From IMG/VR virus record IMGVR_UViG_3300044641_006043, positions 1-26,965 of that record: DNA of 26,965 bases; one strand, given 5' to 3'. The position numbers were made by a program, and so were the translations under genes. The notes beneath the pieces were generated by a model that saw only the letters and a list, made by a program, of their open reading frames with translations, did no database searches and was not told the origin of the DNA. Source of the stretch: a virus. Shown piece after piece: positions 12,043 to 16,217 of the stretch. The stretch's first letter is position 1, and each line of letters opens with the position of its first letter.

Positions 12043-12069
12043 CCCCCACAAATACTTTTGGTACGCCCT

Positions 12070-12843
12070 ATGGCCACCACTGTTCTGTCCGGCACGTCCG
12101 GCGCCCTCTACTACAAGCCCGCTGGAACCATCGGAACTTTCGGTGAAGCCGGCGTGAACACGACCACCAACACGATCACCGTTGAGCCCTACCTGAACTT
12201 CAAGGTCAGCGACCCCGTGAAGTTCCAGCTGGTGAACTCCCAGACTGGCGGCAGCGGCAGCGGCACTCTGCCCGCTCCTCTCAGTGCTGCTACCACCTAC
12301 TACGTGCTCAGCTACACAGCTGCCACTGGTGCACTTCAAGTTTCCACCAGTGCCGGCGGCACCGCAGTCGACATTAGCGACGACGGCACCGCTGTAACCC
12401 CCAACGAGTTTGAGGTTTACTACGCCGACTTCGAGGTTGTGGGCCAAGTCCGCGACTGGAGCTTCGAGGTAACCCGTTCGGAAATCGACGTTACGACCAT
12501 CGGCCAAACCCCCGGTCAGTACGTCCCCTTCCGTAACTACATCAGCGGCTTCGGCGACGGCACCGGCACTGCCACCGTCTACATGACCAACGAGGCGGCT
12601 TCGCTCTCGAACCGTCTGGTGGAAGACGTGCTGCAGCGCCAGCAAGTGGGCGCAGCCTTCAAGCTGTACACCGACCGCGTGTTCACCGGCGGCGCTCTGA
12701 GCGAGAGCCTGAGCCGTTCGATCTCGTTCGACGCCGTGATCACCTCGGCCAGCATGAACGTGAACCCCGACGACGCCCAGTCGGTGTCGATCAACTTCCG
12801 CCCCTCCGGCGCCCCCACCTTCGACTTCAGCACCTCGGCCTGA
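12070..12843 (+). CDS. major tail tube protein
   Basis: A 257-residue protein. The start is ATG 12070; an upstream TTG at 12058 would add only four residues. It follows the terminator gene and precedes the chaperone pair, the standard place for the tube protein. Recognisable parts are ATTVLSGTSGALYYKPAGTI at the N-terminus, DWSFEVTRSEIDVTTIGQTP followed by GQYVPFRNYISG (a loop and strand pair conserved in tube proteins), and the final strand AVITSASMNVNPDDAQSVSI. Codon use is strongly C-ended, like the capsid gene, as expected for a protein present in hundreds of copies. A segment around residues 50-115 looks like an added beta domain. The gene end is imperfectly duplicated downstream. Confidence 0.85.
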   Translation: MATTVLSGTSGALYYKPAGTIGTFGEAGVNTTTNTITVEPYLNFKVSDPVKFQLVNSQTGGSGSGTLPAPLSAATTYYVLSYTAATGALQVSTSAGGTAVDISDDGTAVTPNEFEVYYADFEVVGQVRDWSFEVTRSEIDVTTIGQTPGQYVPFRNYISGFGDGTGTATVYMTNEAASLSNRLVEDVLQRQQVGAAFKLYTDRVFTGGALSESLSRSISFDAVITSASMNVNPDDAQSVSINFRPSGAPTFDFSTSA

Positions 12844-12858: not shown

Positions 12859-12882
12859 GTTGAATTCAGCACCCCGGCCTAA
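12859..12882 (+). repeat. imperfect duplicate of the tail tube gene 3' end
   Basis: The 24 bases here match the last 24 bases of the tube gene (12820-12843) at 19 positions, 39 bases further on and in the same frame. The first copy encodes FDFSTSA-stop, the second VEFSTPA-stop. TGA and TAG stand between them. The second copy also supplies the left arm of the terminator at 12872. Confidence 0.6.
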
Positions 12883-12897
12883 CCGCCGGGGTTTTTT
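12872..12897 (+). terminator. strong rho-independent terminator after the tail tube gene
   Basis: CCCCGGC and GCCGGGG form a 7-bp stem around CTAACC, followed by TTTTTT. It separates the abundant tube message from the chaperone and tape-measure genes. Confidence 0.95.
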
Positions 12898-12939: not shown

Positions 12940-13281
12940 ATGCCCGTTCCTGTACGCGCCATTGATCGCCTGCGCAAGGCGGCCAACCTGGAGCCAACTA
13001 AAAAGACCGTCGAACTGTCTGACGGAAGCAAATTTGAAATGTGGGTAACACCGCTGACGATGGCCGAGCGTGAGCGTGCCGAAAAGCAAGCCAAGTCAAA
13101 CGACGCCAACGCTTTCGCACTGCAACTGCTGCTCAACAAAGCCCAGGACGAATCTGGCGCGAAGCTTTTCGCAGCCGGTGAAATCGACGTGCTCAAGAAC
13201 GAAGTGAAGGACAAGGACCTGCAGGCCCTGATGCTTGCGATCATCGTTGACGACTCCGAGCCCCTGGACCCAAAGAACTAA
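12940..13281 (+). CDS. tail assembly chaperone, short form (G-like)
   Basis: A 113-residue protein read in the zero frame. It starts VRAIDRLRKAANLEPTKKTV and has a small N-terminal domain (ELSDGSKFEMWVTPLTMAER) followed by a helical region (EKQAKSNDANAFALQLLLNK, then VKDKDLQALMLAIIVDD). In siphophages the gene between tube and tape measure makes a chaperone that coats the tape measure during tail assembly. It ends at TAA 13279-13281, 4 bases beyond the slippery heptamer. Most ribosomes should stop here; a fraction slips into the GT frame. Confidence 0.85.
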   Translation: MPVPVRAIDRLRKAANLEPTKKTVELSDGSKFEMWVTPLTMAERERAEKQAKSNDANAFALQLLLNKAQDESGAKLFAAGEIDVLKNEVKDKDLQALMLAIIVDDSEPLDPKN

Positions 13282-13466
13282 GCGCCGAAATACGCAAGGA
13301 CAACTGGCTCCTATTGCAATTCGGCGTCGCCAAGGAACTCGGCAAAAGTCTGCACGAGATCCGCACTACGATGACCGCCGAGGAAATACTCGGCTGGAGC
13401 GCTTACTTCCAGATCCTCAACGAGGACCAGGAAAAGGCGATGGAAAAGGCCAAACGCCGCCGCTAA
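12940..13466 (+). CDS. tail assembly chaperone, frameshifted long form (GT-like)
   Basis: A -1 slip on C-CCA-AAG (13269-13275) joins residues 1-112 of the short form to 63 residues read in the next frame, giving about 175 residues. The new part reads ELSAEIRKDNWLLLQFGVAK, then ELGKSLHEIRTTMTAEEILG, WSAYFQILNEDQEK and a basic end (AMEKAKRRR). The EIRTTMTAEEILGW....L pattern is the known T-domain signature of tail chaperones. The frame has no good independent start covering the whole segment, and its codon use is normal for the phage. Conserved frameshifting at this gene is established for lambda and many siphophages; the ratio here is unknown. Confidence 0.85.
13269..13275 (+). other. -1 programmed frameshift site (CCCAAAG)
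   Basis: C-CCA-AAG is an X-XXY-YYZ heptamer in the zero frame of the chaperone gene, four bases before the TAA stop. After the slip, tRNAs for Pro and Lys can re-pair with CCC and AAA. No strong downstream pseudoknot is obvious to the eye. Confidence 0.85.
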
Positions 13467-13481
13467 CCCGGCGGCTTTTTT
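13456..13481 (+). terminator. rho-independent terminator overlapping the GT stop codon
   Basis: GCCGCCG and CGGCGGC form a 7-bp stem around CTAACC, followed by TTTTTT. The TAA stop of the GT frame lies inside the loop. The left arm encodes the basic end of the protein. Confidence 0.92.
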
Positions 13482-13520: not shown

Positions 13521-16217
13521 GTGGCTGCCTACAGAGCCGATATTGAAATTGGCGTAAAGGGCATAAGGTTTTTAGACGAACTACAAAACAAGCTCACGCA
13601 AGTATCTAAATCCATTGAGGACTTAAATAGACAGACAGTTGTAGTGCGTAGAACTATAGCCGGAGCAGCTTCTGCCACACCTCTAGGTCCTGGCGGTGCC
13701 GGTGTAACCTCTGCTAGCGCTCAATCCGCTGCTTTTGCAGTAGAAAAGCGTATCAGTGAGTTACGGCGAGCGGATGCACAAGCTGAATTAAAAAGTGTAA
13801 AAGATCGTGCTTTTGCTGAAAACTTTATTAGTAGTGTTATATCTAAAAGATTACAAGTAAAACAACAGGAACTTGCCACAGAACAAAGAATAACGGCAGA
13901 GCAACAAAAACAAGCAGCTGCAGCGTTTAAATCTAGAGCCGGCAGTGCCGCAAGTAATGCAATTATTGGCGGCGCATTCCCATTACTATTTGGCCAAGGC
14001 GCCGGAGCGGCTGTTGGCGGCGGATTAGGTGGTGCTTTAGGTGGGGCATTCGGCGGAACCTTAGGTTTTGGTCTTTCTTTGATTGGCACAGCTATTGGCC
14101 AAGCTATTGATGATGCTCAAAAACTAAATAGAGAACTCTTAGGATTAAATGGTAGTCTGTCTTCTACAGGAGATACATCTACTACTACAGCATCAGATAT
14201 ATCCAAACTTGCATCGCAGTTAGGAATAGCAAAAGACGAAGCTCTTAAGCTTGTAGCAGCTTTTTCTGAGTTTGGTTCTGCTTCTGTAAGAGAATCTCTA
14301 GCCGCCAGTTTTGGAGCTGTAGGAGGAGAAGAGGCTTTTAATGCTCTAGCTGCCGCTATCGATAATAAGTCAACGCTAGAAGCTATCGTAAAATTACGAG
14401 ATACCATTACAGATACTCAGGCTAAAGAAGCTTTAAAGCAGCTTGAGATAAACGGATCTGCTACAGCAAATATATTTCTACAGGAGCGTCTAATTAAACT
14501 TCAGGAACAAAAACTTATTAAACAGGCAGAAGAAGTAACTATACTTGACCGTATTCTTGCAGGTTTTGCCGCTTTAGGATCACAAGGTCAATTTATTGAT
14601 CCAGGCACATTCGGTAAAGAACGAGCTGCTGATGTACGCAAAGCGGCTGCGGAACGTAAAAAAGCACAGCAACAAGCTCTCCAAGATACGCGAAACTTCT
14701 TACTGGAAGTAAACAGACTTAACGAAAAATTTACCACTAAATCTAAAAAAGCTCCAAAAGGTCCAAAAGGTCCTGAAGATCGTACAGTATCTTTACGAGC
14801 TGATTTGGACGCTTTACGCAGTATCGGTGATGCAGAGGACCGTATCCGCGATCTGCGTTTTACTGGACAGGACGCTTTAGCTGTACAAGAACAAACCGCT
14901 AAAACTCTTGCGGACATTGAGAGAGATCGTGTAAAGCAACTGGAACAGGCAAATTTTGCTAGTGAGAAATTTACAATTAACGAGATTGCAAGAGAGCGTT
15001 CTCTGCAAGCGCAGCGTGTAGCAGCCGACGAGTTAAGACAAATTGAATTTGACCGTGTAAAAAAAGCACTTGAAGCTAAAAACGCAGTCGAAGAAGCTAC
15101 GCAACCAATTCTTGAAGTCAGTCGCCAACAAAGAATACAGCTAGAAGACGCTAAAAAGTTTAACCAGTTAGTACGTGAAGGCATTCTTCCGGCTGAGGCT
15201 GAGCGGTTAATCAACTTCCAGCGCCTTGTAGAAAGTGAGCTGCAAAGTCTTGACACTACGATCGCCAGGAATGAAGCTCGAGTAACAGAATTAGAAACTG
15301 AAGTACAAGCACTTGAAGTTAAAGCAGATGCTGTTGCTTTGGAAAAAGGTGTAACAGACGAGATATTTGCGCAAATCCAAGCCCGTGGCGGGAATATCAA
15401 CAAAATCAGAGAAGAAATTGATGCTCTTCGTGCTCGCCGCGAAGCGATCGCTGGCGCAGCGGCTGCAGGTCCTGGCGCAGCGCCCACAAATCAAGAGCGT
15501 CTCCAGAGCGAAATCGGTCAGCTCCAGGGTCAGTTAAACCAGCTTGTCGATCCAGTCAATCAGCTTGTTATCGGCGCCCAAGCGATCGGCGACGCTTTCG
15601 GTCAATCCTTCCGCGACATCATCAGCGGCACGGTCCCAGTCCAACAGGCCCTGTCCAATTTCTTCGGGCAGATTGCATCCAGCTTCCTTGACAACGCGGC
15701 CCAGATCATCGCCGCCCAACTCCAGATCTTCGTCTTGCAGACACTGTTGGGTTTTGCCGGTGGAGCAGCAAAAAGTGGTGGTGGTGGCGGACTCGGCAAT
15801 CTAATTTCCGGTTTCCGACAGTACAACTTTGAAGGTTTTTCTGCTTCTTTTGCAGAAGGCGGCTTTGTCACTGGCCCCACCAATGCAATCATCGGCGAAG
15901 GCGGCGAAGCGGAATACGTCATTCCCGCCAGCAAGATGAACGCCGCGATGGCTCGCTATTCAAAAGGTGTCCGCGGCGACGCGGTTATTGCTGGCGAAGG
16001 TGGTTCTGCCCAGGCCGCTGCAGTCAGCGCCGGCCCGATGGAGCCCATCGATGTCCGCTACAGCGTGGAGCGCATCAACAACGTGGACTACGTGACCACC
16101 GATCAGTTCCAGCGTGGACTGGCGCAAGCGGCGCAGCAAGGTGCCGTGCAAGGCGAACGCCGCGCTTTGCGTACGCTTAGTAATAGCCCAGCCAATCGCC
16201 GTCGCATCGGTCTCTAA
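13521..16217 (+). CDS. tail tape measure protein
   Basis: The 898-residue protein sets tail length and is ejected at infection. It starts at GTG 13521. Long coiled coils dominate (about residues 75-140, 330-420 and 430-640). Residues ~146-195 form a glycine-rich hydrophobic segment (NAIIGGAFPLLFGQGAG and on), a motif known in tape measures that may insert into the host membrane. A second hydrophobic stretch near 715-745 (AAQIIAAQLQIFVLQTLLGF) precedes FAEGGFVTGPTNAIIGEGGE and AEYVIPASKM, the typical C-terminal motif of tape measures. Codon use is AT-rich up to about 15370 and GC-rich after it, suggesting a mosaic gene. Confidence 0.93.
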   Translation: MAAYRADIEIGVKGIRFLDELQNKLTQVSKSIEDLNRQTVVVRRTIAGAASATPLGPGGAGVTSASAQSAAFAVEKRISELRRADAQAELKSVKDRAFAENFISSVISKRLQVKQQELATEQRITAEQQKQAAAAFKSRAGSAASNAIIGGAFPLLFGQGAGAAVGGGLGGALGGAFGGTLGFGLSLIGTAIGQAIDDAQKLNRELLGLNGSLSSTGDTSTTTASDISKLASQLGIAKDEALKLVAAFSEFGSASVRESLAASFGAVGGEEAFNALAAAIDNKSTLEAIVKLRDTITDTQAKEALKQLEINGSATANIFLQERLIKLQEQKLIKQAEEVTILDRILAGFAALGSQGQFIDPGTFGKERAADVRKAAAERKKAQQQALQDTRNFLLEVNRLNEKFTTKSKKAPKGPKGPEDRTVSLRADLDALRSIGDAEDRIRDLRFTGQDALAVQEQTAKTLADIERDRVKQLEQANFASEKFTINEIARERSLQAQRVAADELRQIEFDRVKKALEAKNAVEEATQPILEVSRQQRIQLEDAKKFNQLVREGILPAEAERLINFQRLVESELQSLDTTIARNEARVTELETEVQALEVKADAVALEKGVTDEIFAQIQARGGNINKIREEIDALRARREAIAGAAAAGPGAAPTNQERLQSEIGQLQGQLNQLVDPVNQLVIGAQAIGDAFGQSFRDIISGTVPVQQALSNFFGQIASSFLDNAAQIIAAQLQIFVLQTLLGFAGGAAKSGGGGGLGNLISGFRQYNFEGFSASFAEGGFVTGPTNAIIGEGGEAEYVIPASKMNAAMARYSKGVRGDAVIAGEGGSAQAAAVSAGPMEPIDVRYSVERINNVDYVTTDQFQRGLAQAAQQGAVQGERRALRTLSNSPANRRRIGL
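15444..15451. other. HIP1 octamer
   Basis: GCGATCGC is the highly iterated palindrome of many cyanobacterial genomes. I saw a single copy in the window, in the GC-rich 3' part of the tape-measure gene. It weakly supports a cyanobacterial link. Confidence 0.4.

Follow-up and report, generated by a model that had tools for sequence, protein, structure and literature searches.

A programmed slip of the ribosome back by one base, which yields the long form of a tail chaperone, is well known. In lambda, this -1 shift in the G/GT pair takes place at what we take to be the slip site, G_GGA_AAG. G-T frameshifting is described as conserved in PMC5009743, which also presents C_CCA_AAG as highly shift-prone in E. 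coli and names Z_ZZN as a minimal tetramer for slippage, and PMC3711429 reports 6 and 7% frameshifting measured for two tail chaperone genes of an HK97-like cluster. A chaperone role served by a programmed shift is likewise described for SPP1 17.5/17.5*, with a putative -1 shift on UUUUUUC (PMC6316719), and for the halovirus HSTV-2, whose shift is given as very likely +1 (PMC5009743). PMC10885494 describes training on tail chaperone frameshifts and a search for the forward motifs 'four' and 'three'. The descriptions of SPP1 and HSTV-2 do not include a single family with both directions. In the literature that we searched, which covered few subscription papers, we recognised no report of one tail chaperone family that changes direction.

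The window analysed here, meaning the whole stretch of DNA, is a virus record of 26,965 bases from a phage related to marine cyanobacterial viruses; all features given below are on its plus strand. The G ORF (12940..13281; 113 aa, ATG start), assigned as the short tail assembly chaperone from PHROG matches and predicted fold, ends with the codons GAC CCA AAG AAC TAA. A reading made from the sequence alone had proposed a -1 frameshift on CCCAAAG, with a zero-frame stop shortly after it and a -1 frame that continues for 63 codons with a recognisable T signature. We found each of these elements in place. The slippery heptamer C_CCA_AAG (13269..13275) stands in the zero-frame register of G, with just the three bases AAC between it and the TAA of G (13279..13281). 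The -1 frame, which reads PKELSAEIRKDNWLLLQFGVAKELGKSLHEIRTTMTAEEILGWSAYFQILNEDQEKAMEKAKRRR from 13269, is open until the TAA at 13464-13466, and the T part after the slipped lysine, comprising 63 codons and the stop (13275..13466), carries the signature HEIRTTMTAEEILGW; its assignment draws on the open frame, PHROG matches and omega. The resulting GT, join(12940..13275,13275..13466), would have 112 + 63 = 175 residues, with Asp-Pro-Lys-Glu-Leu as the predicted junction peptide, the same peptide that the earlier reading had put forward.

Like lambda G/GT, the locus has an overlapping ORF pair between the tail tube and tape measure genes, a -1 slip close to the 3' end of G and the lysine codon AAG in the A site. 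It differs in having CCCAAAG instead of GGGAAAG, a T of only 63 codons and an intrinsic terminator that overlaps the GT stop, and no shared Pfam family was found, since neither G nor T of the window matched Pfam. The sequences show that the heptamer is in register, that the -1 frame is open and under selection, that the site is conserved and that the surrounding genes and the fold predicted for G fit a chaperone. On these grounds the locus reads as a lambda-type G/GT pair in which a -1 slip at C_CCA_AAG very probably makes the 175-residue GT. The majority of ribosomes would end G at the TAA at 13279, and in a minority the tRNA-Pro on CCA and the tRNA-Lys on AAG would slip back jointly by one base onto CCC and AAA, so that GAA is read next. 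The efficiency probably lies between a few and about ten percent. If the lambda scheme applies, abundant G and a few GT would coat the tape measure protein, and T would recruit the tail tube protein.

Position, profile and predicted fold all identify G as a tail assembly chaperone. The pair sits directly between a major tail protein gene (12058..12843; phrog_158, E 6.1e-4; phrog_1407, E 2.7e-3) and a tape measure protein gene (13521..16217; 898 aa, GTG start), the gene order being read from PHROG matches; the latter gene had short matches, close to its end, to several tape measure families, among them phrog_10093 (E 1.8e-4). G matched phrog_20784 (E 1.5e-32), a family whose function is unknown, and the 'tail assembly chaperone' family phrog_344 (E 9.5e-4); among 41 aligned G relatives, these were matched by 41 and 28, respectively. 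A PDB sequence search with the G alignment gave no match, and the fold search alone gave one. The AlphaFold model of G, of moderate confidence (mean pLDDT 73), had as its best PDB match the HK97 tail assembly chaperone 2ob9 (Foldseek E 8.2e-4), with 10-16% identity over the aligned part. By VIA, the G model matched 2ob9 with Z 8.9 (103 residues aligned, rmsd 4.7), followed by YqbN (3klu; Z 7.2), which we take to be a prophage relative of tail assembly chaperones. T matched the tail proteins phrog_337 (E 6e-5) and phrog_14766 (E 0.002), as did 29 and 30 of 36 T relatives, respectively, although these matches span only 31-43 residues. The part of phrog_14766 that matches T is 123-161 of 224, placed as if a fused form existed.

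The heptamer of the window, taken alone, is weak evidence for a slip site, because, at the codon use of these genes (GAC 1182/1437, CCA 172/672), about a fifth of sequences encoding D-P-K would be expected to show CCCAAAR by luck. We therefore rest the case for the site on its conservation. Relatives were collected from eight viral-contig scans, one genome scan and six phage records; as the best 80 loci were kept in six of the eight viral-contig scans, all counts describe the sequences fetched. Both parts were complete in 533 of the 547 sequences, window included, and the 14 others were dropped (eight ran off the contig, two had no G match and four no T match). Because a single contig in some cases contributed several loci that overlap, we counted distinct sequences, of which there were 375 covering junction plus T. 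The scan of bacterial and archaeal genomes matched a single MAG contig, so prophages were of no help.

In none of the 375 distinct sequences does T share the frame of G or continue it as an in-frame fusion, and in 225 of them T lies in the -1 frame. The sequence-only reading had suggested that conservation of the heptamer in relatives be checked, and an X_XXY_YYZ heptamer in register was found at 203 of these 225 junctions, mostly as CCCAAAR: CCCAAAA in 120, CCCAAAG in 45 and additionally in S-2L, where the same heptamer lies further upstream, AAAAAAC in 21 and additionally in S-H1, CCCAAAC in 7, CCCAAAAAAC in 5, AAAAAAA in 2 and GGGAAAG in 1. CCCAAAA or CCCAAAG stands three bases ahead of the stop in 165 of the 203, and A_AAA_AAC or A_AAA_AAA, one codon downstream, in 23 other -1 junctions. 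The slip-site proline is encoded by CCA in 128 of 140 distinct near relatives, as compared with 172 of the 672 proline codons elsewhere in the same genes. In thinned representatives the values were 36/39 and 49/177 (p 3e-14; because the sequences are related, this and the p-values below are indicative only). Synonymous codon choice at the slip site is thus constrained.

Four cyanophages, KBS-S-2A, S-2L, S-H1 and MED4-184, have a T homologous to that of the window by tblastn, and in each of them T follows G in the -1 frame; G is homologous in KBS-S-2A and S-2L. The heptamer of S-2L is identical to that of the window, whereas KBS-S-2A and S-H1 have A_AAA_AAC and MED4-184 has only A_AAG. That automatic annotation overlooks the fusion, as anticipated by the earlier reading, was borne out in the annotated cyanophage records (L159, HQ634187; L275, MW334946; L277, JF974286; L278, JF974321; L279, MK105819): none of the five, KBS-S-2A, S-2L, MED4-184, MED4-117 and S-H1, had a G-T fusion annotated in the stretches examined. 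The window offers a clean, uncharacterised example among cyanophage-related phages, in which annotation drops the T half.

We then considered how T is translated. The earlier reading had held that T lacks a suitable start of its own. This is so for the beginning of T, which is under selection upstream of any start codon, but not for its interior: the window has a TTG at 13314-13316 and an ATG at 13371-13373, both within conserved T sequence. T could accordingly be a separate small protein started in its own frame, from the TTG or from the ATG of the relatives, with ribosomes perhaps re-initiating once they have terminated on G, and with the heptamer being incidental. In 115 of the 140 near relatives, the ATG that serves as the first in-frame start occupies T codon 15, the codon that precedes the TTG position of the window, and most near relatives have AAGGA about 10 nt upstream of this ATG; moreover, the S-H1 annotation has a separate short CDS beginning inside T. 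T codons 6-13, however, which follow the G stop and contain no start codon in any of the 140, are conserved as protein, with an omega of 0.073 (0.098 over codons 6-15). Over codons 6-15, stops occur in the -1 frame in none of the 140 sequences, as compared with 11 for the zero frame and 18 for the other frame. This purifying selection indicates that translation of T is already under way upstream of the internal ATG, and we reject an independent start as the main route. Furthermore, the window has only the TTG, 13 nt from AAGGA; KBS-S-2A has no ATG, GTG or TTG there, although some of its relatives have one (L246); and the free codon choices within the heptamer are constrained, as described above. 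We consider a separately started T to be improbable as an account of the locus, although the ATG at codon 15 could also yield a short free T in most near relatives. An even less probable alternative, that G works alone and T is a decayed or unused remnant, would suit the weak family matches of T but is at odds with the maintenance of T at an omega of about 0.1 and of its out-of-frame arrangement in every distinct sequence, loss of T being visible only among the four of 547 sequences dropped beforehand for lack of a T match. Translation of T as a continuation of G, with no start of its own, is what the sequences suggest.

The 22 of 225 -1 junctions that lack an XXXYYYZ heptamer are a further point in favour of a separately started T. 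The sequence-only reading had named a conserved T start combined with loss of the heptamer in relatives as the pattern that would speak against slippage, and a small minority of the relatives show at most part of this pattern. T of the main heptamer-less group is still open in -1. Twenty-one of the 22 have C_CCN_AAG (GACCCCAAGAAC in 19, CCG in 1 and CCT in 1), the remaining one being MED4-184 with A_AAG. The main group comprises 13 distinct sequences near the window (GACCCCAAGAACTAG; GAC CCC AAG AAC TAG; L015, L022, L030, L036 and others); it shares its internal ATG with those relatives that do have a heptamer, and it also has AAGGAG, but 21 nt upstream of this ATG. A second set, the L387 group (including L388 and L395), has six distinct versions with GAC CCC AAG AAC TAA plus one CCG and one CCT version, and its sisters L397 and L398 have CCCAAAG. 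In L395, the CCT version, a -1 stop lies right at the junction; either the tRNAs slip together there or the fusion has been lost. As judged from their sequences, the heptamer-less sites seem to fit the minimal Z_ZZN tetramer (C_CCN) rather than re-pairing of tRNA-Lys. In the Prochlorococcus phage MED4-184 (L277:1992-1995), an A_AAG tetramer is the only such site before the G stop, with T in the -1 frame.

The window feature itself is ordinary and of a well known kind; the interesting part is the likely switching of direction in the family. In the other 150 of the 375 distinct sequences, T lies in the +1 frame (for example L258, L261:3322-3330, L271, L276, which is the marine virus AG-345-A17, L283, L368, L405 and L468), a class that the sequence-only reading had not foreseen. 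All 150 carry AAAAG in register with the zero frame and no more than 45 nt from the G stop, at one place in 145 and at two in 5, and the sequence at the junction is mostly ATG, TTA or TTG followed by AAA_AGC. In the zero frame, the AAA is followed by AGC in 142, AGT in 5, AGG in 2 and AGA in 1. The T frame opens exactly at the slip AAA in 142 of the 150 because a stop directly precedes it, and T is conserved from the slip codon onward in the sequences inspected; both observations argue against a separately started T. The T-frame lysine codon at the slip was AAA in 150 of 150, a codon required by the search pattern, AAG sequences being directed to an 'other' class that held none. Among the first 74 distinct +1 sequences, AAA was used at 147 of 391 other T lysines as against all at the slip site, and in a thinned set at 84 of 179 as against 33 of 33 (p 4e-10); the 68 marine +1 sequences added later are AAA-rich anyway (394 of 447 other T lysines). 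With a -2 shift, the tRNA for Ser (AGC) would have to pair anew with AAA, and we therefore prefer a +1 shift for this class.

The two classes appear to share their pivot. An acidic-x-Lys motif occupies the site in 150 of 150 +1 members (DMK 73, DLK 37, ELK 33, DTK 7) and in 213 of 225 -1 members (DPK 194), and the slip lysines of -1 and +1 sequences fall in one alignment column in 10 of 10 cases; the matching lysine codon thus looks like the pivot, at which many relatives seem to slip forward. The G proteins of KBS-S-2A (-1) and L261 (+1) are 72% identical.

We next asked how often the direction had changed. A tree of G plus T required two changes with 83 representatives and four with 80 representatives of a larger set. 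On the 83-row tree, a single +1 clade, and with it a single origin of +1, was rejected (AU p 0.004, for a tested group that had been named after the first tree was seen). The G-only and T-only trees, both from short alignments, each required five changes, at least three of which were forced, in the G-only tree by well supported branches. The proposal that the ancestry of T alone sets the direction is unsupported, as the T-only tree (60 columns) still needs changes. A quick first tree that included very divergent rows had unreliable long branches; L269, L273, L274, L275, L276, L277 and L279 were left out of the 83-row tree, the same rows except L276, together with rows having a G part below 85 residues, were left out of the 80-representative tree, and L395 was left out of the T tree.

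The nearest pair of opposite direction, L417 (-1) and L405 (+1), has the same first 104 G residues, with 303 of 312 nt identical (97%). Between the two, DNA identity of 95% ends some 15 nt upstream of the slip codon, and in T nothing further was found to match; the junction areas lie at about 2321-2352 in L405 and about 799-818 in L417. The pattern suggests a recombination in which slip site and T were jointly replaced, although L405 is a single contig and a chimeric assembly is possible. The near identity of G next to junctions of opposite direction suggests that slip site and T are exchangeable as a unit.

Taken together, these results make it likely that one homologous tail chaperone family switches its frameshift direction around a shared, conserved lysine codon, that of the acidic-x-Lys at the end of G. 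The -1 slip would take place on C_CCA_AAR or A_AAA_AAC, the +1 slip on AAA_AG, in most cases AAA_AGC. Several switches would have taken place, at least one of them apparently by transfer of a slip site and T cassette onto a near-identical G, and a small group would shift -1 with C_CCN_AAG and no heptamer. The production of the same fusion by -1 or +1 at one lysine codon provides a natural experiment on frameshift direction, for which the P-site codon, the A-site codon and tRNA-Lys are candidate determinants.

We also examined RNA structures around the junction. A possible stimulatory hairpin (13282..13327; 13282-13289 with 13320-13327) is predicted 6 nt after the heptamer, with z of -1.88 (65 nt) and -2.95 (100 nt) against dinucleotide shuffles. 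Covariation among 88 relatives gave no double changes, and 85.9% of the hairpin cells were paired as compared with 85.4% in shuffles, 18 of 500 of which were as high. Synonymous resampling across relatives gave no excess of pairs (7.94 with random codons, 7.75 observed). Since the test and control means of the first resampling were nearly equal, it was rerun with another seed and a larger set, giving a mean z of 0.31 at the site and 0.20 in the control (-1.27 for the window alone), again with no excess. With neither covariation nor an excess over resampling, we do not claim the hairpin as a stimulator; it remains a predicted candidate with no sign of selection beyond the protein code of T.

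An intrinsic terminator (13456..13481) consists of a hairpin (13456-13475) and a T-run. Its loop (13463-13468) spans the GT stop TAA at 13464-13466, just as the earlier reading had stated. This arrangement is present in 125 of the 140 near relatives and in 0 of 100 others (1 lacked the length for this test). T ends with Arg-Arg-Arg in 136 of the 140 and in 59 of the 100; since this ending occurs in both sets, the terminator seems to reuse codons that are present anyway. Another intrinsic terminator (12871..12897) follows the major tail protein gene and precedes G, and both terminators have CTAACC-like loops (hairpins 12871-12892 and 13456-13475) and bracket G/GT. The paired terminators may separate G/GT expression from that of the major tail and tape measure genes.
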